Shown: positions 9,354-28,144, counted from the first letter of the stretch. The stretch: DNA of 64,000 nt from Bacilli bacterium (GCA_024408505.1 JAKSUZ010000001.1:64206-128205); one strand, 5' to 3'. Notes: generated from the letters alone by a model not told the origin. Made by a program: numbers and translations.

Positions 9354-11891
9354 TTAATCAATATGATTAATCGCCCAACCTTCTAGAATGGTCGACTTAT
9401 TACGATTATCATATGTTGTGCTGCCTTTCCAGTCAAACGCACCAACCGCCTTTACATCTTCACACCATGAACTTGTGTATATGTATCTACCATCCTCATC
9501 TTGACTAAAGCCGTATTCATCGAAACCAACTTCAATGCTACGCAAATTAGTGCATCCCATGAACATAAATTGATAGCAACCTTTCACTAATTGGTTATTG
9601 GCGGCAGGTAGTTTAGGCGCCACTAAAAGTGATGTACATTTATTAAACATATTAGAATAGCACTGATCAGCTAATGTAGTAGCAGGCAACGCTTTCGCAA
9701 AACGCAAAGAAGTACAACCTTCAAACATAGCGTCACACGCTAATGTCGATAATTTAGTAGCTTGAATATCTGGCATATGCACTAGTGAAGTACAATTAAG
9801 AAACATACGTGCATAACTGCTACCATCATCTAACGTCTTAGCAATTAATTGAGGGGCTTTAACTAATGAATGACATCCGCTGAACATATTTCCATAGCTA
9901 CTTCTTTTAACGTTTTGAGCTAATAATAAAGGAGCCTTTTTGATGGAGGCACAACTACTAAACATTTCTGAATATGTTGCATTGCCTATACTAGTAGCAG
10001 GCAAAGCAGGTGCTTCCAATAAATTAGTACATCCATCGAACATTCCAAGATAACTATAATCACTTAATTCGGTTAATGGTAATTGTGGAGCGGTAAGTAG
10101 TTCAGCGGTTCCGCTAAATAGACCCTGGTAACTACGTTTCTTAGTGGAATAATTACGTAAACACGTAATATCGCCATCAGCTTTGATTCTTCCGTTCATA
10201 ATAAAGTATAGATTATTGCTATCTCCACCAAGCTTATCATTAGTGCCGCGAATGTATCGTGTCTCTCCATTAGGAATACGAAGCTTGCCTGGGCTCTCTC
10301 CACGTCCGCCTTCCCAGCTTTGCCATCCCTCTTCTGATAACTGAGTGTTATATTCTAATTTACCTCCGCCTCTTTGTAATACTTCTGGATCAAAAGAAAC
10401 CCATGAATCATCCGCTGCGGCGGTAAATGATAAATATTTACAAATCGCTTCATTAGCTTTTATATGAACAACTGATTTTTGATTCTTTAAATCAATTGTA
10501 ATGGTATAGCTACTCGAGTCTAATGAACAATTGGTATAGGCTTTGCCATTACTAGTTGTTATATCGTAATAAACAATTGATTTTGGAATATAGTAATAAT
10601 TAGCATCCACTCCGTTTGCTAAAGATACATCTACCTTAAAGGTATCACCGCTATATGTAGGATTTTTAAATTCTAAAGATTCAGAAGACTCTAGAACTAC
10701 TTGTTCTTTTCCATACTCAGCGTATAAAGTAATGTCTTCCGTGATAGGTGTATCAAAATCAAATACTTCTTGACTACCATCAGCAACATTTATGTACCAA
10801 GAATCAAAATAATAGTTCTTTTTAGTAGGATCTTCAGGTTGATCAACGTAATCGCCTAATATCACTTTCTCAGTAACATCAGGAGCGCCGTTATTGTATT
10901 TAAAAGTGACGGTGCATTTTGGAATATCTTTATCCCATCCGGCAAAAAGAAACATATTTTCTTTTATTGGGGTTGTCTCTAAATCAACTGCTGGATCATC
11001 AACTGGGAATATTTGACTACGATGCCACCCGGTAAATTCATATCCAGACATAGTAGGTGTCGCTACATTAGTAACATATTCACCATCATTAACTTTTTTG
11101 AGTTGGTGATACGGGCTTGCGCCTGGCGCATATAACTCAACCATCCACACTTCTGTCCATTTAGCGTATAAAGTCATAGAGCCAGTTACCAAAGTACCAA
11201 ACTCATATTCCTCTTGTAGTTCCTTATCTTTATACCACCCTTCAAATATTGCGATTCCTTTTTTCGGATCTTCCGGTTTATCAATTGTATGATTTTTAAG
11301 AACCTGAATCGGTGGAATTTTCGTTCCTCCATTTGTCTCAAATGACACTATACACGTATCTTCAAATTTAGCATATAAAGTGATGTTTTTATTAATTGGA
11401 GTATTTTCAAAGTCAAAAACTTCTAATCCTCCAATCGGACTACTATAGTACCAATTTTCAAAAGAAGTACCTATAGGTACATCAAATTCAGGACGGGTAG
11501 CGTATCCGTTTTCCGCTACTATTTGATTAGGAATTGGGTCGGTCTTGCCAAACGTTTCAAAAGAAACGGTATAAATATTGGTGTAATTAGCCACTAAGGT
11601 CATATCACCTAAAACTAGATTAGAAAAATTATAAGGAGTGTCACGCCCTTTCTTTGACCAATAATCAAAACGTGCATTTTCTTTTTCGGGGTTTTTAGGT
11701 TTCTTAACTTGTTGATATTTTTTAACCGTTTGAGTAGCCGGAACCGGTGTTCCGCCATTCGCATCGAATTCTACAGTATATGTCTTTGTTGGTTGTGGTT
11801 CAGGTTCTGGTTCAGGACTAGACTCACTACAACCAAATAAAAACACAAGTGATGACAATAAAACAATTCGACCTAATTTAATAAATTTCAT
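9354..11891 (-). CDS. Large surface lipoprotein: InlB-type repeats plus BspA-like LRR region
   Basis: 845 residues. A lipoprotein signal peptide (lipobox LFGC, Cys21) is followed by an acidic proline linker of EP repeats. Residues about 38-395 hold five Listeria-Bacteroides (InlB B-type) repeats, each with a F-x-x-N-G-G-like start and a FDYW/FEGWY/FTGWH end. After a beta-rich spacer, about 560-810 holds roughly ten repeats of about 23-25 residues of the form APxLPAxxLxxxCYxxMFxxCxSL, a BspA-like leucine-rich variant. Such proteins serve as adhesins or ligand-binding surface proteins. Promoter and start look leaderless. It is expressed separately from the upstream exporter, whose stop overlaps its promoter region. 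Confidence 0.85.
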   Translation of the reverse strand: MKFIKLGRIVLLSSLVFLFGCSESSPEPEPEPQPTKTYTVEFDANGGTPVPATQTVKKYQQVKKPKNPEKENARFDYWSKKGRDTPYNFSNLVLGDMTLVANYTNIYTVSFETFGKTDPIPNQIVAENGYATRPEFDVPIGTSFENWYYSSPIGGLEVFDFENTPINKNITLYAKFEDTCIVSFETNGGTKIPPIQVLKNHTIDKPEDPKKGIAIFEGWYKDKELQEEYEFGTLVTGSMTLYAKWTEVWMVELYAPGASPYHQLKKVNDGEYVTNVATPTMSGYEFTGWHRSQIFPVDDPAVDLETTPIKENMFLFAGWDKDIPKCTVTFKYNNGAPDVTEKVILGDYVDQPEDPTKKNYYFDSWYINVADGSQEVFDFDTPITEDITLYAEYGKEQVVLESSESLEFKNPTYSGDTFKVDVSLANGVDANYYYIPKSIVYYDITTSNGKAYTNCSLDSSSYTITIDLKNQKSVVHIKANEAICKYLSFTAAADDSWVSFDPEVLQRGGGKLEYNTQLSEEGWQSWEGGRGESPGKLRIPNGETRYIRGTNDKLGGDSNNLYFIMNGRIKADGDITCLRNYSTKKRSYQGLFSGTAELLTAPQLPLTELSDYSYLGMFDGCTNLLEAPALPATSIGNATYSEMFSSCASIKKAPLLLAQNVKRSSYGNMFSGCHSLVKAPQLIAKTLDDGSSYARMFLNCTSLVHMPDIQATKLSTLACDAMFEGCTSLRFAKALPATTLADQCYSNMFNKCTSLLVAPKLPAANNQLVKGCYQFMFMGCTNLRSIEVGFDEYGFSQDEDGRYIYTSSWCEDVKAVGAFDWKGSTTYDNRNKSTILEGWAINHID

Positions 11892-15889: not shown

Positions 15890-16310
15890 TTTTCTTCATC
15901 TCCATATATGTTTCTAAAATTACTACTGCGCTTTGCATATCAATTACTTTCTTGCGCTTAGCGCGAGAAATATCGCTCTCTAATAGACGACGATTCGCTA
16001 ACATCGTAGACATTCTTTCATCTACCATCTTAACTTTTAAATTCGGCATTCTTTTAATTAATTCATCTTTAAAGATGTTACTAGCCTTACTACTATTAGA
16101 ATCACTACCATTCATATTAAGCGCTAAACCAATTGCGACTTCATTAACGCTTTCACGTTTAATAACATCTATAGCATGCGAGATTGCAGTTTGATATCCG
16201 CCTTCGTTAAAACGAAAGTTCTCTAATCCATGCGCAGCAATACCAAGTGCATCGCTAATAGCAATCCCTAAAGTCTTAGTGCCTAAATCAAACGCGATAA
16301 TCTTCTTCAT
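15876..16310 (-). CDS. ruvX: RuvX/YqgF Holliday-junction resolvase-like nuclease
   Basis: 144 residues, normal length. An RNase H-like fold is indicated by IAFDLGTKTLGIA with Asp8, IGLALNMNGSD, VDERMSTMLA and the C-terminal SAVVILETY. YqgF/RuvX acts in 16S rRNA 5' maturation and is predicted to cut branched nucleic acids. The ATG overlaps the alaS stop (ATGA), an arrangement common in Firmicutes where alaS and yqgF are neighbours. Confidence 0.95.
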   Translation of the reverse strand: MKKIIAFDLGTKTLGIAISDALGIAAHGLENFRFNEGGYQTAISHAIDVIKRESVNEVAIGLALNMNGSDSNSSKASNIFKDELIKRMPNLKVKMVDERMSTMLANRRLLESDISRAKRKKVIDMQSAVVILETYMEMKKNGQA

Positions 16311-18889
16311 AAAAGCTTAGTCACTAATTCCTCGACTTGTTTAATTTCATTAATGGCGTTAACTTTACCGTTCGCTTCGGTTGGTTTACCACCACCAGAT
16401 CCACCAAGAACCTGACATATACTTCTAGCGATATTACCCGCATTAGCTTCTTTAATGTCACTCGTGACATAAAGGTGATTACCACCCGTACGAGAAACAC
16501 CAAATAAAATAATTAGATAATTATGGTTATTACTTTTTAATGCACTAGCGACATTAACTAATAAATCACGGTTACCACCATCAATCTTAACGATTAAGAC
16601 CTGATGGTCTTTAATATTCTTAAATTTAGTCTTCAAAGTATTTGCCATATTATTAGCTAGTAACGCTAGGTTATTCTTAAGTGCTAATTTAAGCATCTCA
16701 CGGTCTTTTAATAAAGCGTTCATGGCTAATGGGATTTCTGGGATACTACGTGCACCTAAATGTTGCATCGTAACTCCTAATACATTCTCACGAGCATCAA
16801 TTAACATGTAAGCGCCAATTGAAGTACGAGCCGTAATTCTTCTAATTCCACTAGCGATACTTTCTTCACTTTCAATCTTAAATATACCAATATCACTTGT
16901 ATTACTTACATGAGTGCCGCCACAGAATTCTATAGAATAGTTACCCATTTTAACGACTCTAACGGTATCACCATACTTTTCGGTAAATACCATCTTCGCT
17001 CCTAATTTCTTAGCCTCTTCAATTGGTAATACTAAAGTCTCTACCTCTAAGGCTAAAGCAATTTGTTCATTAACCTTTCTTTCGATTAACTTGATGGTTT
17101 TACCATCGAGTTTACTATTATAGTTAAAATCAAATCTAAGACGTTCATCACTAACAAAGCTACCCTTTTGTTCTACATTAGGTCCTAATACTTGACTTAA
17201 AGTTGCATCAAGTAAATGGGTCGCGCTATGGTTACGCATAATTAAATGGCGACGATTCTTATTAATCTTAAGAGTAAATGAATCACCAATATGAATCTTA
17301 CCAAACGCTACTTTAACAAAATGTAGGTGTTGTTGATGCGGTGCTTTAATAACATTAGTAATACTAATTTGGCTTTCTTTATTAGTAGCACTACCAATAT
17401 CGGCTACTTGGCCACCCATCTCAGCATAGAAGTTAGTCTTATCAAAGATAATCTCACCATGATCAATAATCTCATTAGTCTTAACGCCATCAATAAACAT
17501 TGCGACTACTTTAGCCTTAATATATTTAAGTTCATAAGTAAATTCGCTTTTAACGGTACAATCTAGTAAGTCTTTAGCTTGAGCGTGCATACTTTGCACT
17601 TCGCCTCGAGCTGATCTCGCTCTTTCTTTTTGTTCACTCATCTTCTTTTTAAAGTCTTCTAGATCGACTTTTTCATTAGCTTCATTAGCGAGTTCAATTG
17701 TTAACTCGATTGGGAAACCAAAGGTATCGTATAATTTAAAACCATCAATGTGATGATTTTTAATCATCTCTTTAAGTACTTCTTCACCATTAGTAAGGGT
17801 TAAGAAGAATTTTTCTTCTTCACTCTTAATTAAATTAGTGACATAACTTTCTTTATTAATTAGTTCAGGATAAAAAGATGAGTAGTTAGCCACTACTACT
17901 CTAACTAAGTTATACATGAATGGCTTATTGATATTGAGTCGATGTCCATGAGAGACCGCTCTACGAAGTAGACGTCTTAGGACATAGCCTCTACCTTCAT
18001 TAGAGAACATTGCTCCATCAGTTAAGGCGAATGTACACGCTTTAATATGATCAGCGATTACGCGATAACTCATGGTGTTATCTTGATATTTAACTTTAGT
18101 TAATTTAGCGACTTCATTAATAATTGGTTTAAATAAGTCGGTATCAAAGTTGGTTTCTACTCCTTGAAGGATTAACGCAAAGCGTTCAAGTCCTGCACCA
18201 GTATCAATATTCTTACTTGGTAATTCTTTATAGTCTTTACGAGCGACTCCGCTCTTCGCATTAAATTGAGATAGCACAATGTTCCATATCTCAATATATC
18301 GATCGTTTTCAATATCTTCTTGTAGAAGTTTAATGCCTAAATGTTTAGGATCATACTTCTCCCCTCGATCATAATAGATTTCGGTATCAGGACCGCAAGG
18401 TCCTTCTCCAATCTCCCAGAAGTTATCCTTACTAGCGATTAAGTGAGTAGGATCGATACCTAATGATACCCATTTATTAAAAGAATCTTTATCATCTGGA
18501 TAATAAGTAATATAAAGTTTATCTTTATCTAAACCAAAATACTTATCACTAGTTAATAATTCAAATCCATATTCAATCGCTTCATTTCTAAAGTAATCTC
18601 CTATAGAGAAATTACCCATCATTTCAAAGAAGGTATGATGTCTAGCCGTCTTACCAACATTTTCAATATCGTTTGTACGAATACATTTTTGCAAATTAAC
18701 AATTCTTCTACTAGGTGGCACCTCTCTACCATCAAAGTATTTCTTAAGAGCGGCTACGCCGGCATTAATCCAAAGTAAAGTTGGATCATTATTAGGCACT
18801 AAAGAAGCACCTTTTTCAATATGATGACCTTTACTCTTAAAAAAGTTTAACCAAGTATCTCTAATTTCTTGACTCGTCATGTATTTCAT
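16307..18889 (-). CDS. alaS: Alanyl-tRNA synthetase
   Basis: 860 residues. Class II catalytic motifs are HHTFFEMMGNFSIGDYF and RRLLRRAVSHG. The editing domain has the zinc site HSATHLLDATL with CGGTHV, and the C-terminal C-Ala domain ends with GGSGGGKPTEANG. It charges tRNA-Ala and clears Ser/Gly mischarging. A cognate tRNA-Ala gene with G3:T70 is at 55251-55326. The ATG at 18889 has no ribosome site; an internal ATG at codon 4 begins MTSQEIRDTW, which looks like the usual family start, so either may be used. Confidence 0.97.
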   Translation of the reverse strand: MKYMTSQEIRDTWLNFFKSKGHHIEKGASLVPNNDPTLLWINAGVAALKKYFDGREVPPSRRIVNLQKCIRTNDIENVGKTARHHTFFEMMGNFSIGDYFRNEAIEYGFELLTSDKYFGLDKDKLYITYYPDDKDSFNKWVSLGIDPTHLIASKDNFWEIGEGPCGPDTEIYYDRGEKYDPKHLGIKLLQEDIENDRYIEIWNIVLSQFNAKSGVARKDYKELPSKNIDTGAGLERFALILQGVETNFDTDLFKPIINEVAKLTKVKYQDNTMSYRVIADHIKACTFALTDGAMFSNEGRGYVLRRLLRRAVSHGHRLNINKPFMYNLVRVVVANYSSFYPELINKESYVTNLIKSEEEKFFLTLTNGEEVLKEMIKNHHIDGFKLYDTFGFPIELTIELANEANEKVDLEDFKKKMSEQKERARSARGEVQSMHAQAKDLLDCTVKSEFTYELKYIKAKVVAMFIDGVKTNEIIDHGEIIFDKTNFYAEMGGQVADIGSATNKESQISITNVIKAPHQQHLHFVKVAFGKIHIGDSFTLKINKNRRHLIMRNHSATHLLDATLSQVLGPNVEQKGSFVSDERLRFDFNYNSKLDGKTIKLIERKVNEQIALALEVETLVLPIEEAKKLGAKMVFTEKYGDTVRVVKMGNYSIEFCGGTHVSNTSDIGIFKIESEESIASGIRRITARTSIGAYMLIDARENVLGVTMQHLGARSIPEIPLAMNALLKDREMLKLALKNNLALLANNMANTLKTKFKNIKDHQVLIVKIDGGNRDLLVNVASALKSNNHNYLIILFGVSRTGGNHLYVTSDIKEANAGNIARSICQVLGGSGGGKPTEANGKVNAINEIKQVEELVTKLL

Positions 18890-18986: not shown

Positions 18987-21900
18987 TCACGAACCTAAAA
19001 CTAAATTTATGAAAAGGTCGCCGGGCCAGCCTTCGCTATCTTGGCTGTAGTAATAATAAGTAACTTTCTGATACGTTATCGGTGAGAGCGTCCAGTTCCA
19101 TCCTGTTACTTTGCCTTGTTTAAGTTTATCTATCCAACCAGAGTCGATTTTTAGGCAATTGTAATCGTGATCAGATTCAGGGCTACTATAATTAATATAA
19201 TCATACCAACCATAGAATACTTGTTCACCCATTTCAAACTTACTTGGTTTTTTAATATTATCATATTGAATATGAAGAGGATTAGTGTGAATAGCATATT
19301 CGCCTGTGCGTCTTCTTCCTAGAGCTACACAGTTAATAAATGCACGGTCACCGATTTTTCCTAATTTAGAAGACATTTTATTATTGGAAGTATATCCAGA
19401 GGAATCTTTTTCGCCTAAATATGCGAAGTTTTGATCTTGAGCAAAAGCGTAGGCTCCAATCGATTCAATATTGGTTCCGCTGCCATATAAGAAATAATTT
19501 AAGTTTGAATCACCGTAGCATACCGAATCAGGAATTTCTGTAAGGAGAGTAGTTGCACAATATATTCCTGGCAAATTGTAACAATCTTGGAAAGCGCTCG
19601 CTCCGATTTTTGATAAAACAGTTGAAGATATATCAACCTTTTTATTAACGCTCTTACAACGCAAGAATGCATTGCTCCCAATTTCTTTCAGAACGGTTGA
19701 ACTAATTTTAATTTCAGTGGCTTTAGAGCACAAAGCATACGCATAATCGCCGATTGTCTTTACGCTTGTAGAAACTTCAATTGATTGAAGAGCGGTGTTA
19801 TAAAAACAATAACTAGGTATGATTCCGTTAGCTCTATATGTTACTGTTTTTAAGGCGCTGCAATTTTTGAATGTTCCGTCGCCTAACGTCACTCCATTGC
19901 CGGTGTCTTTTAAAGCGATTTTGGTTAAGCCTGTGCAGTTTTCAAAAGCACTATTGCCAATCAGCGTGGCATAAGAGAGTTTAAGATTTACTAGAGCTTT
20001 ATCGTTTATGAAGGCAGAACTTCCTACTGTGGTGAGTGTGCTAGGAAAAGTAGGACTCGTACTATCATTTATCGCTAATTTTTCACAGTTAGCAAACGCT
20101 GATGTGCCAATTGATTCTAATTTACATCCCTCGCCAGTATAAAAACTAACATTAGTTAGATTTGGGCAATTAGCAAAACTATATGACCCAACGGAAACGA
20201 GACCGCTACATTGTGACATATTAATTGTTGTAGCCTCGACGCCCATAAACGCTTTTGTGCCGATCTGCGAAACCGGGAAATCACCTAATATCGCAGGGAC
20301 TTCGATTGTTTCCTTGGCCTTATCTCCAATATATTGAATAATATAAACAGATTTTTTACCTTCTTCACCAACAACAATATATGAATATTGTTTATCTTTA
20401 TCTATTTCGGGATTAATTTCAGGATTTTTTACTCCGTAAGCTACCGCAGAATATTCTCCGGCCCAATGTTCATCCCAACTTTCGGGTTTTTTATCTTCAT
20501 CCACATAGCATTTAATTAAACCTTCAAAATTTTCGAAAGCTCTTTCTTTAATTGTTGTTACTCCTTCTGGCAAATAAACATTTGACATATTAAGGCAATC
20601 CTTGAAAGCACGTTCGCCAATGGTTCCGACTTTAGTGAAGTCAAAGGAAGCTAATGTTTGGCAACCATCAAAAGCATGCTCTTTTATCTCAACAACATTG
20701 GTTGGGCAAGTAAATTTACTTAAGCCACGGCATCCGTGACAAGCATATTTCTTTATAATCTGATTTTGTGTTATTCCATCGCCCACTTTTTGAATATCAA
20801 TTTCTTGAATATAAGCACAATTACTAAACGCTCCTTCAGGAATCGATGTCGCATTAGTTACCGTAACCTTTCTCAAAGAAGAGGGAATCGCGGCTTTTAC
20901 ATCATAATGTTTACCAGATTCATCGTAATAATCTTGATAAGTTAATGTCTCAGCGCCTTTAAATGTTTCTTCCCCGAATAATGCTCCGAGTAGATGTCTT
21001 CCATCTTCTGATGGATCTGCTTCTTTATCCAATCCGATAAACGGAATAGTTAGATTCTGAAGATTAGAAAATCCATTTAATATACCTTTTCCGTATTCTA
21101 AATCGTTTTCTCCGTCCTTCGCCGGCAATCCAATTCCAACTACATCGTGAGCACCTTTTTCATCTTCAAAATGATTCTTAAATTCTACTGAAACAACTTC
21201 CTCTTTTGATAATCCTTCATCAAGTCTTAATCCTGTAATAACAACTTTCGACCAATCGCCTTCAACAAGCGGTTCACAGATATAATCACTAACAGGCACA
21301 TCTGTCTTAGGAATAGCGTTAACTGTGATATGAATAGCATTTTCTGTAGGAACTTTAATGTTTAAATAACCGGTGGCAACATCAAAATCGTATTCATCTA
21401 ATACTTGAGTATCCTCTAACTTTCTATTGCCCATGTAAATTTCCACGCCACTACCATCAACTCCGTATTGGTAGTAATATTGGTTATTAATACTGAATTT
21501 ACATTCGTATTTCTCTCCGCCTTTCGAAGTTCTTTCACCAGACTCAAGGGTAATCGCTGAAGGTATATGGAATACAACATCATATCCAGCTTCTGGCTCT
21601 GGTTCTTTGCCGCCCTTTTGACCAAGGAATACCATTCCAACTGCCATACCGACAATTGCAAGTACTGCAACTGAAGCAGTAATAATAAGTGGAAGATGAC
21701 CTTTTATGTTCTTCTTCTCTTTTGGCGCGGGTGCTCCACTACTAGGAGCAGTCTCTATTTTAACTACTGGAGCAGTTTCAGTATTCTTACCTACTAATGC
21801 GGTAGCATCCGTAGGTTTCTTCGCTTTAACTACTCTCTTCTTATTGCGTCTAATAAACTTATGACTGTAGGAAGCAAGTGCTCCACTTCTCATCTCTTGA

Positions 21901-22076
21901 TCAATAATCTTCTTTGCTTCAAAGACATAAGAGGTTCCTGGGTTTTCTCTTATATATACTTTACGGAGTACTTCGATACCGTTATATATATAACAGACTA
22001 GTATCTCCTTATAACCCTTCTTACTAGAAGTAGTGTTTACTGCATAGGAAAAATCAGAAAATGAATGTTTTAACAT
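18987..22076 (-). CDS. Membrane-anchored BspA-like LRR protein, paralog 1
   Basis: 1029 residues. A conserved N-terminal domain of about 75 residues (starting MLKHSFSDFSYA, rich in Tyr/Lys) is followed by a basic and Pro/Ala-rich linker, a single transmembrane helix at about 128-151, and a large outside part. From about residue 330 to 1000 there are many leucine-rich repeats of the LRR_5/BspA type (IGxxAFxNCxxL pattern). With no signal peptide and positive charges before the helix, the N-domain should be cytoplasmic. The N-domain is about three-quarters identical by eye to that of the neighbour at 22219, while the outer part diverges. A likely adhesin or surface receptor. Ribosome site GGAGG, 7 bases before the ATG. 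Confidence 0.85.
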   Translation of the reverse strand: MLKHSFSDFSYAVNTTSSKKGYKEILVCYIYNGIEVLRKVYIRENPGTSYVFEAKKIIDQEMRSGALASYSHKFIRRNKKRVVKAKKPTDATALVGKNTETAPVVKIETAPSSGAPAPKEKKNIKGHLPLIITASVAVLAIVGMAVGMVFLGQKGGKEPEPEAGYDVVFHIPSAITLESGERTSKGGEKYECKFSINNQYYYQYGVDGSGVEIYMGNRKLEDTQVLDEYDFDVATGYLNIKVPTENAIHITVNAIPKTDVPVSDYICEPLVEGDWSKVVITGLRLDEGLSKEEVVSVEFKNHFEDEKGAHDVVGIGLPAKDGENDLEYGKGILNGFSNLQNLTIPFIGLDKEADPSEDGRHLLGALFGEETFKGAETLTYQDYYDESGKHYDVKAAIPSSLRKVTVTNATSIPEGAFSNCAYIQEIDIQKVGDGITQNQIIKKYACHGCRGLSKFTCPTNVVEIKEHAFDGCQTLASFDFTKVGTIGERAFKDCLNMSNVYLPEGVTTIKERAFENFEGLIKCYVDEDKKPESWDEHWAGEYSAVAYGVKNPEINPEIDKDKQYSYIVVGEEGKKSVYIIQYIGDKAKETIEVPAILGDFPVSQIGTKAFMGVEATTINMSQCSGLVSVGSYSFANCPNLTNVSFYTGEGCKLESIGTSAFANCEKLAINDSTSPTFPSTLTTVGSSAFINDKALVNLKLSYATLIGNSAFENCTGLTKIALKDTGNGVTLGDGTFKNCSALKTVTYRANGIIPSYCFYNTALQSIEVSTSVKTIGDYAYALCSKATEIKISSTVLKEIGSNAFLRCKSVNKKVDISSTVLSKIGASAFQDCYNLPGIYCATTLLTEIPDSVCYGDSNLNYFLYGSGTNIESIGAYAFAQDQNFAYLGEKDSSGYTSNNKMSSKLGKIGDRAFINCVALGRRRTGEYAIHTNPLHIQYDNIKKPSKFEMGEQVFYGWYDYINYSSPESDHDYNCLKIDSGWIDKLKQGKVTGWNWTLSPITYQKVTYYYYSQDSEGWPGDLFINLVLGS

Positions 22077-22089
22077 AAAAATTCCTCCA

Positions 22090-22134
22090 ATGTATATTTA
22101 TATACATATCTACCCTAAATCTTACTTATAAAGA
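22090..22134 (-). promoter_or_regulatory. Conserved upstream region of LRR paralog 1 with palindromic operator
   Basis: ATGTATATTTATATACAT at 22090-22107 is a perfect 18-bp palindrome placed just before the ribosome site. Further upstream the 16-base block 22119-22134 (AATCTTACTTATAAAG on the plus strand) next to an A8 run is identical to the region before the second LRR gene. The shared block probably contains the promoter, and the palindrome is then in the 5' leader. ATGT/ACAT half-sites resemble PadR-type operators; that is inference. Confidence 0.55.
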
Positions 22135-22172
22135 AAAAAAAGTCAATATGAATAGGAAAGGTGTCTATTTTT

Positions 22173-22199
22173 AAAAAAGGCACCACACTATGTGATGCC
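22173..22199 (-). terminator. Intrinsic terminator after LRR paralog 2
   Basis: On the minus strand a GGCATCACA / GTGGTGCC-type stem (22179-22199) is followed by a run of six T (22173-22178). It lies 20 bases past the stop of the 22219-25278 gene and before the promoter of paralog 1, so the two LRR genes are separate transcripts. Confidence 0.85.
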
Positions 22200-22218
22200 T
22201 TTTCTATAAGGCTCAATA

Positions 22219-25200
22219 CTAAGCGATATTTTTTACGATGTGAATATAAAGATTATCGTTTCCTAAAGCCGAACACTTATATCTTTCGGTATAGCCTTGG
22301 TCTGGATATTTATCCCCACTCCAACCGCCGGTCGCGCAAGTTGAGTTATCAGCTAAATACCATCCCCATTTCGTCGTATAATTATGGATATTGCCATCAA
22401 AAGCGACGTGTGTTTCATTAAGCCAACCTTCGGCTAAAGAAATATAGCCAGAGGTATCTGATTCGTATGAATTATACAAAATGCCTGGGTCAATATTTGT
22501 GTGTTTAGTGACCCAACCTTTAAACACATCATTACCAAATTCAAGACTTGTAGACACATTTGCCTGATAGTTGAATATCAACTGTGGAATTCCTACGCAA
22601 TTATAGAACGCTGAATCACCGACCTTAGAAAGTGTAGCAGGGAGATTACCAGCATTCATAAACGATGTGATATTACGGCAATCGAAGAACGCTTTAGCAC
22701 CAATCGATTTTAAAGAGTTTGTCGGGCATGCAAAGCTTGTCATATTGATACATCCATCAAATGCACTATCTGAAATAGTGGTTAATAAAGATTCACCTGA
22801 CACATTACCAATTCCAACGCTTGTAATGCCTATACAATTCCTAAATGCATTAGAACCGATTGAGTCAAGGCCTGTCGCTTTGCCTAGCGAACTAACATCA
22901 GTAAGTTTCGAGCAACCAGCAAATGCGTTGTCTCCAATAGTACGTAATTTATCTGCTTTTCCGTTATTTCCAACTTCTAAAGTGAATTTTGTAATAGGAC
23001 AATTTTCAAAAGCGCTCGCGCCAATTGAAGTGATGTAGTATGGGATAGATTGCTCACCGCTTATGGATGTATTCTTAAAACATTCATCAGAAATGACTTT
23101 AAAGTCTTTCCCGACATAGTCCCAATCTGGCGATTCCTCTTGGTTCCAATAATATTCGATTGATGTAAGTTTTGCACAATTAAGGTACGCTTTCGCACCG
23201 ACGGAAACTACATCTGCTGTAATTTTAACTTTTTTTAAGTTAAAGCAACCTTCAAACGTTGATGCACCAATTTTACTAGCGTTAGGTAAAGAAACTTGGA
23301 CTAAGTTTGTGCAACCTTTAAAAGCAGAGGCTCCAACTGTTTTTATAGAAGCAGGTAAAACGCCTTCGTCCATCGGATTATCACCGAAAGGATCGGTTGG
23401 ATTGATGACATCATTAATCTGTAATGAAGAACAATTTAAGAATGCTCCAGCGCCTATAGTTTTAAGGTTAAAGTTACCGTTCCCAGGAGTTTGTGCTATA
23501 AAGTATAATTGTTCTAAATTATAACAGCCCATGAAACAATAATTACCGATTGATAATAAATCAGTACAATTGAATGTAACTGTTTTAAATGGAGTGTATT
23601 GATAAAATAGTCCCATGCCTAAATGACGAATAGGATAATCCTTGTTGCCATCGCTTAAGGAATATGGAATAACAGGGTTCTCCTCGTATTGCTCGCCGAC
23701 ATATTCGGTAACAAAGGCATATTCAATGTTATCTTTTTCAGTGGTAACAATAAACTTGAAGTTTCCATCTTTAATAGGGGTAACGCTACCGTTTGAACCA
23801 TAAATTACTGCAGTAGTATCACTGGCCCAATCCTTATCCCAATCTTTTTCCGCAACATCTTCTTCGTAATCTTCAACCATTACGATTCCGCCAACACTAG
23901 CGAAAGCGCCGGTTCCAACTTTTTCAACGGTTTTTGGAATAAATGTTTCTTGCGCGCCAGAGCAATCGCTAAATGCATCGTCTCCAATCTCTGTTACGCC
24001 TTTTAAATTAAAGAGCACGGTTTCTTCATCAGTGCTTCTAGGTCCAACAGCGGTTAATGTATTACAACTACTAAAAGCCATAGCTCCGATTTTGCTAACT
24101 ATACCCTCAGGGAAGACTACTGTTTCAAGAGCTTTGCAGTTATAAAATGCATAATTCCCAATTTCACCAACATTTCCAGAAATAGTAATATCGTTTATGC
24201 GATTACATTCACTAAATGCACCAATTCCTATTGGTGAATCGCCAGTAATAGAAATATCACTTAAATCGTTTGGAATAATCCATTTTTTCATCTTGTGAGT
24301 CGAAATATCAGTAGGATCTTCAAGATAATCCTGCCAAACAGGAATACCACCAGAATAATCTTCATCACCGAAAATGTATCCTAGCATTTGGTCTTCTATT
24401 GAGTTTGTGGCTGTAGGATTTTTATATCTACCAACAAATGGTATAGATAAGTTTTGTAGATAACCACATCCAGCTAAAGCGCCTTTTTCGATTTCAACAA
24501 CCGTAGCAGTTTCACCGGTTTCTGGATTTGGTACACTATTAGGAATAATAATGGTACCTATATCCTTTAATTTAGTTTGATCGTATTTAACTCCCACAGC
24601 CTTTGCTGTATTGCCATCAAATTCATATTCCATCTCAGCTGTGACTTCGTGCTCACCATGTCCGTAAGCATGTATATAAAGGTCATCTGTAATTACACCT
24701 TCATTAATTTTTAATGTTTTTCCATCAAAAGAATAATCTACATCATTTGTAAGAAGCTTAGTCCCCATCATAACTGATGAAACAGAGACAATTTGTTTAT
24801 TTTGAGCAGCGGTAAATTTACATTCATAAGCAGCGTTTTTTTCTACTTGTGATGGTCCGTCAGCAGAGCAACTGTCATAGGTGAATCTAACTTCAAAAGT
24901 AGTTCTCTCAGGAATAGGCTCAGGTAACGGCACAGATCCCTTACCAGCAAAGAACATACCGACACTCATGCCAGCAATTAATACTGCAGCGATACCTGCT
25001 GTAACAAGAACCGCTTTCTTACTAGATTTTCCACCATTATTCTTGCGTTTAACAAACTTATGACTATAAGAAGCAAGCGTTCCGCTTTTCATTTCCTTAT
25101 CAATAATTTGTTTAGCTTCAAAGATATAAGAAGACTTACCCGGTTCATCTTTTATATAAATCTTACGAAGTACTTCTACTCCGTTATAGATATAACATAC

Positions 25201-25278
25201 AAGAATTTCCTTGTAGCCTTTCTTTTCTGATGTCTTATTTATTGCATAAGAAAAGTCTGAGAATGAATGATGTTCCAT
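22219..25278 (-). CDS. Membrane-anchored BspA-like LRR protein, paralog 2
   Basis: 1019 residues with the same plan as its downstream neighbour: N-terminal domain (about 1-76, starting MEHHSFSDFSYA), short Lys-rich linker, transmembrane helix at about 89-112, then a beta-rich part and LRR_5/BspA repeats to about residue 930. It lacks the Pro/Ala linker of paralog 1. The shared N-domain against divergent repeats indicates tandem duplication followed by diversification of the exposed part. Ribosome site AGGAG, about 7 bases before the ATG. No catalytic motif is seen. Confidence 0.85.
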   Translation of the reverse strand: MEHHSFSDFSYAINKTSEKKGYKEILVCYIYNGVEVLRKIYIKDEPGKSSYIFEAKQIIDKEMKSGTLASYSHKFVKRKNNGGKSSKKAVLVTAGIAAVLIAGMSVGMFFAGKGSVPLPEPIPERTTFEVRFTYDSCSADGPSQVEKNAAYECKFTAAQNKQIVSVSSVMMGTKLLTNDVDYSFDGKTLKINEGVITDDLYIHAYGHGEHEVTAEMEYEFDGNTAKAVGVKYDQTKLKDIGTIIIPNSVPNPETGETATVVEIEKGALAGCGYLQNLSIPFVGRYKNPTATNSIEDQMLGYIFGDEDYSGGIPVWQDYLEDPTDISTHKMKKWIIPNDLSDISITGDSPIGIGAFSECNRINDITISGNVGEIGNYAFYNCKALETVVFPEGIVSKIGAMAFSSCNTLTAVGPRSTDEETVLFNLKGVTEIGDDAFSDCSGAQETFIPKTVEKVGTGAFASVGGIVMVEDYEEDVAEKDWDKDWASDTTAVIYGSNGSVTPIKDGNFKFIVTTEKDNIEYAFVTEYVGEQYEENPVIPYSLSDGNKDYPIRHLGMGLFYQYTPFKTVTFNCTDLLSIGNYCFMGCYNLEQLYFIAQTPGNGNFNLKTIGAGAFLNCSSLQINDVINPTDPFGDNPMDEGVLPASIKTVGASAFKGCTNLVQVSLPNASKIGASTFEGCFNLKKVKITADVVSVGAKAYLNCAKLTSIEYYWNQEESPDWDYVGKDFKVISDECFKNTSISGEQSIPYYITSIGASAFENCPITKFTLEVGNNGKADKLRTIGDNAFAGCSKLTDVSSLGKATGLDSIGSNAFRNCIGITSVGIGNVSGESLLTTISDSAFDGCINMTSFACPTNSLKSIGAKAFFDCRNITSFMNAGNLPATLSKVGDSAFYNCVGIPQLIFNYQANVSTSLEFGNDVFKGWVTKHTNIDPGILYNSYESDTSGYISLAEGWLNETHVAFDGNIHNYTTKWGWYLADNSTCATGGWSGDKYPDQGYTERYKCSALGNDNLYIHIVKNIA

Positions 25279-25291
25279 AATTAATCTCCTA

Positions 25292-25334
25292 ATGTATAGT
25301 TATACATAACTATCTATAATCTTACTTATAAAGA
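25292..25334 (-). promoter_or_regulatory. Conserved upstream region of LRR paralog 2 with palindromic operator
   Basis: ATGTATAGTTATACAT at 25292-25307 is a 16-bp palindrome (ATGTATA/TATACAT arms) in the same place as the 18-bp one before paralog 1. The block 25319-25334 and its A-run match that gene exactly. The spacing ATGT-N8-ACAT is that of PadR-family operators. The common layout suggests one regulator for both genes. Confidence 0.55.
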
Positions 25335-25369
25335 AAAAAAAAAGTCTATATAAATTTATAATTATGTTT

Positions 25370-26506
25370 TTATTTATCTAGGCGCTTTTTATCTAGATAA
25401 ACTTCAGAAATAATGCCACCACCGATCATAATACCTTTACTGGTATAAAATACGGCGGCTTGACCAGTTGCGACTGCTTTAGCTTTCTTAGGAACGATTA
25501 CTTCAATTTCATCCTTGTTAATACAATTAATTGTAGCGGGATAATCTTTCTCACGATATCTAAATTTAACCCCCACTTTCATATTTTTCTTAATGGGATA
25601 AACGATATTTAAATTAGTAACAATAATTCTGTTACTCATGATTAATGAAGTATCACTTTCTTTAGTAACATAAACAATGTTCTTCTTAGTATCTTTTTTC
25701 ACTACTGTCCAACCTTCTGCAGTTTCTCCAGAAATACCACCAATCCCTAATCCTTTATGTTGACCGATGGTGTAATAAAACGCTCCATTATGTTTACCTA
25801 CTACTCTTTTATTCTTAATATCAACAATCTTTCCTGGTTGAGCAGGGATATAGTTATGTAAGAAATCTTTAAAATGTCTTTCACCAATAAAACATACTCC
25901 CGTTGAGTCTTTCTTATTAGCGATATTAAGTTTTAATTTATTCGCAATCTTTCTTACTTCACTTTTAGTGATATCCCCTAATGGAAATAGGCAAGAAGCA
26001 ATCTGCTTCTCGTTAATTTGACTTAAGAAATAAGTTTGATCTTTATTTAAATCTTTAGCTTTCTTTAAATAATATTTATTACCGATCTTAACTCTTTTAG
26101 CGTAGTGTCCCATCGCAATTAATGAGAAACCATGTTTTTTAGCGTAAGTTAAAAACGAATCAAATTTAATATATTTGTTACAAAAGATATCCGGATTAGG
26201 AGTTCTACCTTTTTTATATTCACTTAAGAAATGCGTAAACACATAATCCCAATACTCTTTAATAAAATCCACTCGTAATAATTTAATTTTTAAAATCTTC
26301 GCCGCAACTAGAGCATCGTTATAGTCTACTTCTTGAGGACAACACGAATTATTAATGGTGGGATTACCAAAGTAATCGTTATTGGCTAACGCATCCCAAT
26401 TACGCATAAAACAACCAGTTACTTCATAACCTTCCTTTTTTAGTAAATAAGTAGCGACCGCGCTATCAACACCACCGCTAAATCCAATTAATATTTTTTT
26501 CTTCAT
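25370..26506 (-). CDS. mnmA: tRNA-specific 2-thiouridylase MnmA
   Basis: 378 residues. The N-terminal PP-loop is GFSGGVDSAVA. Catalytic cysteines sit in PNPDIFCNKYIKF and in STGVCFIGER, and the C-terminal region has YTIGQHKGLGIGG. MnmA makes the 2-thio group of wobble U34 in Lys/Glu/Gln tRNAs. Its ATG overlaps the TGA of the helix-turn-helix protein gene by ATGA, so it is read from the kinase/HTH transcript or from a promoter within it. The upstream insertion therefore probably influences a housekeeping gene. Confidence 0.96.
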   Translation of the reverse strand: MKKKILIGFSGGVDSAVATYLLKKEGYEVTGCFMRNWDALANNDYFGNPTINNSCCPQEVDYNDALVAAKILKIKLLRVDFIKEYWDYVFTHFLSEYKKGRTPNPDIFCNKYIKFDSFLTYAKKHGFSLIAMGHYAKRVKIGNKYYLKKAKDLNKDQTYFLSQINEKQIASCLFPLGDITKSEVRKIANKLKLNIANKKDSTGVCFIGERHFKDFLHNYIPAQPGKIVDIKNKRVVGKHNGAFYYTIGQHKGLGIGGISGETAEGWTVVKKDTKKNIVYVTKESDTSLIMSNRIIVTNLNIVYPIKKNMKVGVKFRYREKDYPATINCINKDEIEVIVPKKAKAVATGQAAVFYTSKGIMIGGGIISEVYLDKKRLDK

Positions 26507-27291
26507 TTGCCTTTTTTAGTCTCAATGGTGTTCTTTTTAATTTTGAGACTTTTTGCCCTCCTAAAAAACGTACTCCTTGATATGCCTAAAAAGTCTAGCG
26601 CTTGTTGCGCGGTAAGTTTTTTATAAAAATATTGCTTATAAATTTCGAGCAATTCGTTATTATCTATTTTGATTGGTTTCCTTCCTAAATATGAACCATG
26701 TTCTTTACGCTTAATGACGCCGGATTTTTGATTATCGAGTTTTCTTTTATACATAATTTCATATATCGGCAAAAAATAATTTCGAATTGAAGCTAAATCA
26801 ACTTGTTTCCCATCAATATAAACAGTATTACCAGAAGCATAATTGCCAACAATACTTTTGACACTCTTATAAAGGTCATTTTCATCTTTTAAATTACAGT
26901 AAATTTTTCTTTTAGGAAAGTGAGGAATAGGGTATATAGAATCACCTGTATATCTACCTTTATTAAGCATGTATAATTCTAATGGGTCATAGTATTTCAT
27001 TTTATTATTACTGAGAATGGATCTAATATTAACGCGATTTTCCGGAGGAATTCTTTCTTGAAGAAATACGGGGATTCCTTCACGAACATAACACTCTTTT
27101 TTTAAATCGAGATTCAAACCTTGAATCCCATTAAAAGTTGAAGGTGGCAACAATTCAATGACATCGTAATTAGGATAAAAACTATATTTGTAACCATCCG
27201 AAGAAATCTCTTGTTTTAAAGAAGCTATGCGATAGACAATTGCTTTTCGCCTAACGGCTAAGTCAATTAATTTACTTTTTTTGTTTACCAT
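26503..27291 (-). CDS. Partner protein with C-terminal resolvase-like helix-turn-helix
   Basis: 262 residues. The last ~65 residues (YLGRKPIKID, then LTAQQALDFLGISRSTFFRRAK) read as the HTH of serine resolvases/invertases, but there is no resolvase catalytic domain. The N-terminal 190 residues match nothing I recognise. It overlaps the kinase gene upstream by 20 bases, giving a kinase-then-DNA-binder order. In HipA-type modules a DNA-binding partner represses the operon; here the partner would be a new type, and the palindrome over the operon -35 is a plausible target. The final 11 codons are themselves part of a 33-bp repeat that matches that operator. Confidence 0.7.
   Translation of the reverse strand: MVNKKSKLIDLAVRRKAIVYRIASLKQEISSDGYKYSFYPNYDVIELLPPSTFNGIQGLNLDLKKECYVREGIPVFLQERIPPENRVNIRSILSNNKMKYYDPLELYMLNKGRYTGDSIYPIPHFPKRKIYCNLKDENDLYKSVKSIVGNYASGNTVYIDGKQVDLASIRNYFLPIYEIMYKRKLDNQKSGVIKRKEHGSYLGRKPIKIDNNELLEIYKQYFYKKLTAQQALDFLGISRSTFFRRAKSLKIKKNTIETKKGK
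26518..26550. repeat. 33-bp repeat, 3' copy, inside the HTH gene
   Basis: Matches 28171-28203 at 30 of 33 positions in the same direction. It has perfect inverted arms AGTCTCAA (26518-26525) and TTGAGACT (26543-26550). It codes for residues near the end of the HTH protein and ends 11 bases before the mnmA start. Confidence 0.8.
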
Positions 27292-28144
27292 ACTTGCCTC
27301 CTAATTTTAAAAACGCTGGTTTTAGAATCTTTTCATACCTTTCTTTTATCATACGTATCAAAAATTGCTTACGTAAATTTGTTATATCTGTGCTCAGAAC
27401 AACTTTTTCGATTTCTTTAAGATTTATTTTCGGAAAAATCTTTAATAATGCCTCATTACATTTTTTATATTTCAAGGAATTGATAATGGTAAAATAATCG
27501 CTTTTGCGATTGTTACTATTTTTTATAATCGATAAAGGAGTTTGGTAAACTCGTTCATTGATTTCGTCTTGATCTCCTTTAACTATCAACCGCATTTCAC
27601 TTTCATCTAGCATTCCACAGAATAGACATGATCCGTTATCAAACACCGGACAAACATAATATTTATTATCAATTTTTTTATAACCCCAATTTCTACCATG
27701 ACGATCTCCATTCGCTAGTAACGCATCTACAATATATGTTTCCCAGAATTTATTCAAAGCCTCTTCTTTGTTAACGAGTTTTCGGTTCTTTAAAATCATT
27801 TCTTCAATTTCTTCGTAAGAATATCCGTAAGTCTTACCGTCATCTAAGCTAGACTCTCCGACATCATTAAACGGGGTAAAATTAAAATCTTTGACAAAGT
27901 CCAAGCAAGCAACTACATATTCGTTTTTGTATTTTCCTAAAATCGTTTTCTGGCATTCAATGCCGATTGATTCGAACACGCGCGAACCTATGTATTCAGA
28001 TATATCATTAAAATAATCGCCTAATGCCTCATGTCTTCTAAATTTAAGCATATATTTTTTATTGCAAAAAATAATGCCTTTTTTTTCTTCCATTCCACCA
28101 TAGGTAATGCCACTAGATTTGCACTTGCTAAAATCAATTCTCAT
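27272..28144 (-). CDS. HipA/CtkA-like serine/threonine kinase
   Basis: 290 residues, the short form without the HipA N-terminal subdomain. Lys34 in YMLKFRR fits the ATP-binding lysine. The catalytic loop is NGDRHGRNWG (Asp147, His149, Asn152) and the metal-binding motif is FDNG (Asp169), as in HipA and Helicobacter CtkA. HipA-type toxins phosphorylate aminoacyl-tRNA synthetases or other translation targets and cause growth arrest. The gene has a near-consensus promoter under a palindrome and is followed, with overlap, by an HTH partner, the layout of a toxin-antitoxin module. The C-terminus is basic. The target is unknown. Confidence 0.85.
   Translation of the reverse strand: MRIDFSKCKSSGITYGGMEEKKGIIFCNKKYMLKFRRHEALGDYFNDISEYIGSRVFESIGIECQKTILGKYKNEYVVACLDFVKDFNFTPFNDVGESSLDDGKTYGYSYEEIEEMILKNRKLVNKEEALNKFWETYIVDALLANGDRHGRNWGYKKIDNKYYVCPVFDNGSCLFCGMLDESEMRLIVKGDQDEINERVYQTPLSIIKNSNNRKSDYFTIINSLKYKKCNEALLKIFPKINLKEIEKVVLSTDITNLRKQFLIRMIKERYEKILKPAFLKLGGKYGKQKK

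Follow-up and report, generated by a model that had tools for sequence, protein, structure and literature searches.

The 64,000-nt stretch of DNA analysed here (hereafter the window; Bacilli bacterium GCA_024408505.1, JAKSUZ010000001.1:64206-128205) carries a pair of tandem genes on the minus strand at positions 18987-25334, flanked by alaS (16307-18889) and mnmA (25370-26506). Gene A (18987-22076) and gene B (22219-25278) encode single-pass leucine-rich repeat (LRR) proteins of 1029 and 1019 amino acids, predicted to lie at the cell surface. These assignments come from open reading frame (ORF) calls and matches to the Pfam family LRR_5, together with a transmembrane (TM) segment in the case of A and a comparison with a sister species in the case of B. 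An earlier note on this DNA, made from the sequence alone, had described two LRR membrane proteins of ~1020 residues in tandem, and our gene calls agree with it. The sister species, a horse-gut relative ('Bacilli bacterium isolate Horse_feces345'), possesses an orthologous gene, to which B is closer (48% identity) than A. As the source assembly (1.23 Mb, 53 contigs) is 87% complete, copy numbers given below for this genome are lower bounds.

Residues 1-78 of A (21843-22076, minus strand) and of B (25045-25278, minus strand) form a domain recognised from BLASTP, structural modelling and regional identity, and in A also from its lysine and arginine (K/R) content; that of A is basic, with a predicted beta-beta-beta-alpha order. 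We refer to it as the inner domain. It is followed in both proteins by one hydrophobic helix (A, residues 130-150, mapped as about 128-150 at 21627-21695; B, residues 90-110, 24949-25011; minus strand), with an excess of K/R on the N-terminal side. By the positive-inside rule the helix is predicted to be oriented N-in/C-out, and A and B would thus be exported and anchored at the surface through this single segment. The outer part matches LRR_5 (BspA-type) at 221 bits in A and 236 bits in B, against a Pfam cut-off of 27.7, with four matching stretches in A (19428-20759, minus strand) and five in B (22564-24234, minus strand). Going by what is known of the family, the LRR parts are probably of the adhesin type, and their binding of ligands is putative.

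A conserved inner domain and a divergent outer part

A BLASTP alignment of A and B runs nearly end to end at 30% identity overall, with the identity concentrated in the first ~77 residues. By region, A and B are 77% identical over residues 1-78, 41% in the linker and TM segment, 21% in the stalk and 26-35% in the LRR parts and tail. The same holds when the sister gene is included: identity over residues 1-78 is 77-78% in all three pairs (A/B, B/sister, A/sister), and 21-59% in other regions. The earlier claim of closely shared first ~75 residues with differing outer LRR regions is therefore confirmed (77% versus 20-40% identity).

Inside the inner domain and outside it alike, synonymous sites are close to saturation, the proportion of differing synonymous sites (pS) being mostly 0.6-0.8. 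Nonsynonymous divergence (dN) is about 0.14-0.16 in the inner domain and 0.4-1.1 in most of the outer part, despite similarly saturated synonymous divergence. Since synonymous sites are near saturation everywhere, the conservation of the inner domain in A, B and the sister ortholog reflects strong purifying selection and not recent copying. Recent duplication or gene conversion of this part is ruled out by the same figures, as pS between A and B is 0.71, above the value of 0.53 for the flanking orthologs mnmA and alaS. The earlier note had proposed looking for recombination within the LRR part; no sign of it was found there: long direct repeats and tandem arrays are absent, and synonymous sites are saturated.

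Upstream regions of the pair

The earlier note had also pointed to a shared 16-base block with a T-run, a palindrome of the ATGTATA/TATACAT type upstream of both genes, and a terminator between them. All three are present, and the shared block is longer than claimed: a 41-nt direct repeat of 88% identity lies upstream of both A and B. Within it, an identical 19-mer, TTTCTTTATAAGTAAGATT (found twice exactly, where chance predicts 0.21 matches even with up to 3 mismatches allowed), can be read as spacer plus -10 element of a sigma-70-type promoter. The predicted promoter of A (22119-22146, minus strand, from a promoter listing; shared block 22118-22136) consists of TTGACT, a 16-nt spacer with a T8 tract (22134-22141) and TAAGAT. 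That of B (25319-25348, minus strand, hexamers picked by eye; shared block 25318-25336) consists of TAGACT, an 18-nt spacer with a T10 tract (25334-25343) and TAAGAT. A strong intrinsic terminator lies after B and before A (22172-22206, minus strand; z -5.5, with 0 of 200 shuffles as stable). With a predicted promoter each, A and B can probably be expressed separately.

Between promoter and ribosome-binding site lies the palindrome, as ATGTATA-N4-TATACAT in A (22090-22107) and ATGTATA-N2-TATACAT in B (25292-25307), both found by motif search. These are the only two sites in the 1.23-Mb assembly (none for a reversed-pattern control), which rules out a genome-wide operator, and the palindrome is absent upstream of the sister ortholog. 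The looser motif ATGT-N8/10-ACAT, which the earlier note had suggested searching for as a sign of a PadR-type regulator, occurs at chance level in the window; with the long form confined to A and B, a PadR-type regulon, with operators above chance at several promoters, is not indicated. The palindrome folds as an RNA hairpin, yet one no more stable than shuffled sequences (z -0.6 to 0.3). At zero mismatches, the 20-mer TTTTCTTTATAAGTAARATT has three sites in five genomes of the genus, one each upstream of A, B and the sister ortholog. Other genes with the inner domain have upstream regions unlike those of A and B, and the control region thus belongs to the pair and, for the promoter block, its sister ortholog, not to the family as a whole as had been proposed.

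The spacer T-tracts differ in length, with T8 in A, T10 in B and T7 in the sister-species gene. The window has four A/T runs of at least 8, whereas a third-order Markov model predicts about 20. The promoter tracts of A and B account for two of these four runs, and that of B is the longest A/T run in the window; as such runs are rare here, the two tracts stand out. Changes in the length of a promoter homopolymer are a known switch of the vlp genes of Mycoplasma hyorhinis (PMC10502178). The two systems are alike in having an A/T homopolymer in the promoter of each surface-protein gene, with lengths that differ at A, B and the sister gene; the homopolymer lies inside the -35/-10 spacer in both A and B. 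However, Vlp proteins are lipoproteins, whereas A and B are LRR signal-anchor proteins whose tract lengths were compared between genes, in one assembly of the species. It is plausible, as a possibility, that slippage in the tracts (T8 in 16 nt, T10 in 18 nt, T7 in the sister) switches transcription of these genes.

The inner domain on other proteins

The earlier note had proposed searching the genome for further copies of the N-terminal domain, and these exist. A single-sequence search of the source genome returned two good copies and one weak, and a search of relatives returned eight in the sister species; profile searches raised these numbers to 6 and 10, respectively, and added 2 copies in each of two further species of the genus. 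None was found by profile in a fifth genome of the genus. Among 196 genomes of the family, 279 of the order and 395 of the class, only weak matches were obtained outside the genus; those in six genomes of other genera were taken as chance, given that they lie in ectodomains, soluble enzymes and other unrelated settings. Pfam searches of the members returned no convincing family match, sequence comparison with solved structures no relatives, and phages and plasmids no homologs. As far as these searches detect it, the inner domain is genus-specific.

In the source genome it occurs, besides A and B, on a DUF6273 protein (L016), a PL8 lyase (L043; Lyase_8_N, E 3e-24), a signal peptidase I (L042; TIGR02228, 54.8 bits versus a cut-off of 51.85) and a transporter named MATE from a reading of its sequence (L071), forming the C-terminal tail of the latter two. 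A second species has an orthologous MATE protein that retains the tail (74% identity over 542 residues), whereas matches to other MATE proteins of these genomes, which have no such tail, end at about residue 470. Carriers in the sister species are three LRR proteins, DUF6273-like proteins, a PL8-type lyase, a short membrane protein and a coiled-coil protein, in which the domain is C-terminal. In the two other species it is inserted within an HGSNAT-like acyltransferase, and one of them also has an InlB-repeat carrier. The domain is thus found in three kinds of position (N-terminal, internal and C-terminal).

That these copies represent one domain was supported by a profile built from only the 11 N-terminally placed copies and run on held-out copies of other architectures. 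The acyltransferase, InlB-repeat, coiled-coil, signal peptidase and first PL8 copies were recovered by HMMER at E 1.9e-9 to 1.9e-5, and the second PL8 copy and the MATE copies were at noise level (0.002-0.1). Profile-profile scores were 33-50 for all six held-out groups, compared to at most 19.5 in 60 column-shuffled controls each.

A constant inside domain paired with variable outside repeats, as put forward in the earlier note, is thus a correct description of A and B, and further copies exist, but the domain is not confined to adhesins or receptors: signal peptidase I, the MATE transporter, the HGSNAT-like acyltransferase and the coiled-coil protein carry it too. Restriction of the domain to these two genes, which the note had named as speaking against its idea, is not what we see. 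Its other counter-indication, presence in unrelated non-surface proteins, is touched by the same four carriers, yet nearly all carriers are envelope proteins.

All single-pass carriers (13/13) have the domain ahead of an N-in anchor that is richer in K/R on its N-terminal than on its C-terminal side, and the domain should therefore lie inside the cell. A cytosolic location is also consistent with its place at the C-terminus of MATE and signal peptidase I, since those tails are expected to face inward. Of the further LRR_5 genes examined in the source genome, most have a lipobox-like N-terminus (lipoproteins) and lack the inner domain, and one has a bare TM segment. An LRR protein at L112:883-2218 has an N-terminal anchor similar to that of the carriers, but no inner domain. 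Proteins with this type of outer part thus have at least two modes of anchoring, of which the inner module is one. In a tree of the N-domain, grouping of the LRR-bearing copies as one clade is rejected (approximately unbiased test, p = 0.012) and at least 11 changes of outer part are needed, which argues that the pairing of inner domain with outer part has changed in the course of evolution. AlphaFold prediction, run on A, B and the sister gene, gave the beta-beta-beta-alpha order twice, at low confidence.

Several further observations concern the carriers. The inner-domain PL8 lyase (L043:1-4191) is flanked by the end of a lyase-like ORF and by a lipoprotein-like ORF, possibly representing a second anchoring type for similar lyases. 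The sister-species locus L018:1258-3930 has a 203-aa ORF with the inner domain and, behind it in a different frame, an ORF of 677 aa that lacks an early start; a frameshift or a broken long gene is possible. An LRR gene of the sister species (L020, contig C20) starts about 45 bases after an apparent 5S ribosomal RNA gene, as judged by eye.

Other genes of the window

Another probable surface protein of the window, of 845 aa and with several Listeria-Bacteroides (Flg_new) repeats, is encoded at 9354-11891 (minus strand). A HipA_C-type kinase gene (27272-28144) overlaps an uncharacterised partner gene (26503-27291) with a C-terminus resembling a helix-turn-helix (together 26503-28144, minus strand). 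This pair, possibly toxin-antitoxin-like, sits between mnmA and a thymidine-phosphorylase-type gene, and looks like an insertion, as those two flanking genes are adjacent in the sister species (L017).

Discussion

Given its spread over unrelated envelope proteins, a shared role in docking or handling is the best fit for the inner domain, a role as sensor or topology signal fitting less well. We suggest, with belief and doubt about evenly balanced, that it is a genus-specific, portable inner-face module which docks varied envelope proteins to a common cytosolic partner or to each other. An uncleaved signal anchor would fix A and B in the membrane, and the ~75-residue cytosolic N-domain would dock LRR adhesins, DUF6273 proteins, PL8 lyases, signal peptidase, transporter and acyltransferase, which would thereby be clustered, positioned or handled together. 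Binding would be the task of the outer LRRs, free to diverge since the common partner constrains the inner face alone. A bolder version, in which one bacterial genus has added a single inner-face plug domain to unrelated envelope proteins and relies on one cytosolic scaffold to order much of its cell surface, is a tentative idea that we rather doubt.

Several observations weigh against docking or the promoter switch. The common partner is putative, and the copies are often 17-35% identical, which could mean different partners and not one. The N-domain tree has few well-supported branches, with most inner branches weak and the end branches long, and no clear membrane segment is visible in the sequence examined for the coiled-coil carrier. 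The inner-domain model reaches a predicted local distance difference test score (pLDDT) of 63, and of 36-60 for this part in the full model, and a fold search with it gave no match with E below 0.08. Evidence for promoter slippage consists of three sequences from two species.

A small constant cytosolic N-domain, one TM segment and a variable exterior are also the layout of RsgI-type anti-sigma receptors. If A and B worked like these, the LRR part would sense a ligand and the inner domain would relay the signal by binding a regulator, which suits both the likeness in layout and the strong purifying selection on the inner domain. However, no RsgI_N or other signalling family was matched in Pfam searches of A, B and nine other carriers, no regulator gene is linked to the pair between alaS and mnmA, and the module also forms the tail of a transporter and of a signal peptidase and lies inside an acyltransferase, none of which are sensors. 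A signalling role is therefore improbable in our view. C-terminal and internal copies on multi-pass proteins are hard to reconcile with a domain whose basic character merely secures N-in insertion and non-cleavage of the anchor, as they cannot serve the insertion of a first anchor. Although the domain precedes an anchor with a K/R-rich flank in every single-pass carrier, its sequence is conserved beyond the needs of charge alone, and the LRR protein at L112 manages with a similar anchor without it; we consider this explanation unlikely.

The beta-beta-beta-alpha order, the K/R excess and a weak match to Arm-DNA-bind_2 in 2 of 19 members (best E 0.013) would be expected of a nucleic-acid-binding module like the arm domain of tyrosine integrases, through which the proteins would tether DNA or RNA to the membrane. 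This is hardly credible, since comparison by hhalign with 13 arm domains of the same order gave a probability of 0.3% and no arm domain was among the best 50 Foldseek matches, leaving an Arm/AP2-like DNA-binding domain unsupported. It may finally be that A and B belong to an ordinary paralogous surface-protein family, whose N-domain reflects nothing more than shared descent and has hitch-hiked by fusion to other genes. The domain is restricted to the genus and scarce in its smaller genomes, with 2 copies in each of two species and none detected in another; this is compatible with such an origin, but the strong purifying selection in A, B and the sister ortholog, the tail retained on orthologous MATE proteins and the three different positions within proteins are not readily so, and we give this explanation a small chance.

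Among the closest known systems, the BspA-like (TpLRR, LRR_5 PF13306) surface proteins share with A and B LRR_5 scores well above cut-off, a large surface-type build and several members per small genome. 'Candidatus Mycoplasma girerdii' has a 26-member BspA-like family with a C-terminal TM segment in 23/26 (PMC4206474), while A and B have an N-terminal anchor after a conserved cytosolic domain, and most other LRR_5 proteins of the source genome are lipoproteins. The LRR part of A and B partially matches the HupY/LrrG LRR adhesins (NF047961) at 64 and 34 bits, far under the family cut-off of 1250 bits, and the anchoring differs. RsgI-type receptors, alike in layout, differ by the missing RsgI_N match and by the presence of the module here on non-receptor membrane proteins.

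Conclusions

Small-genome gut Bacilli are largely uncultured, and little is known of how their surface is organised. The A and B promoters, with spacer homopolymers of different length, are candidates for expression switching outside the classical mycoplasmas. The inner domain would help to name a group of surface proteins of the genus that are otherwise anonymous. Adhesins, glycan lyases, a signal peptidase and a transporter have this cytosolic domain in common, which suggests a shared organiser on the inside of the cell; such an organiser could be fished for with a single bait.

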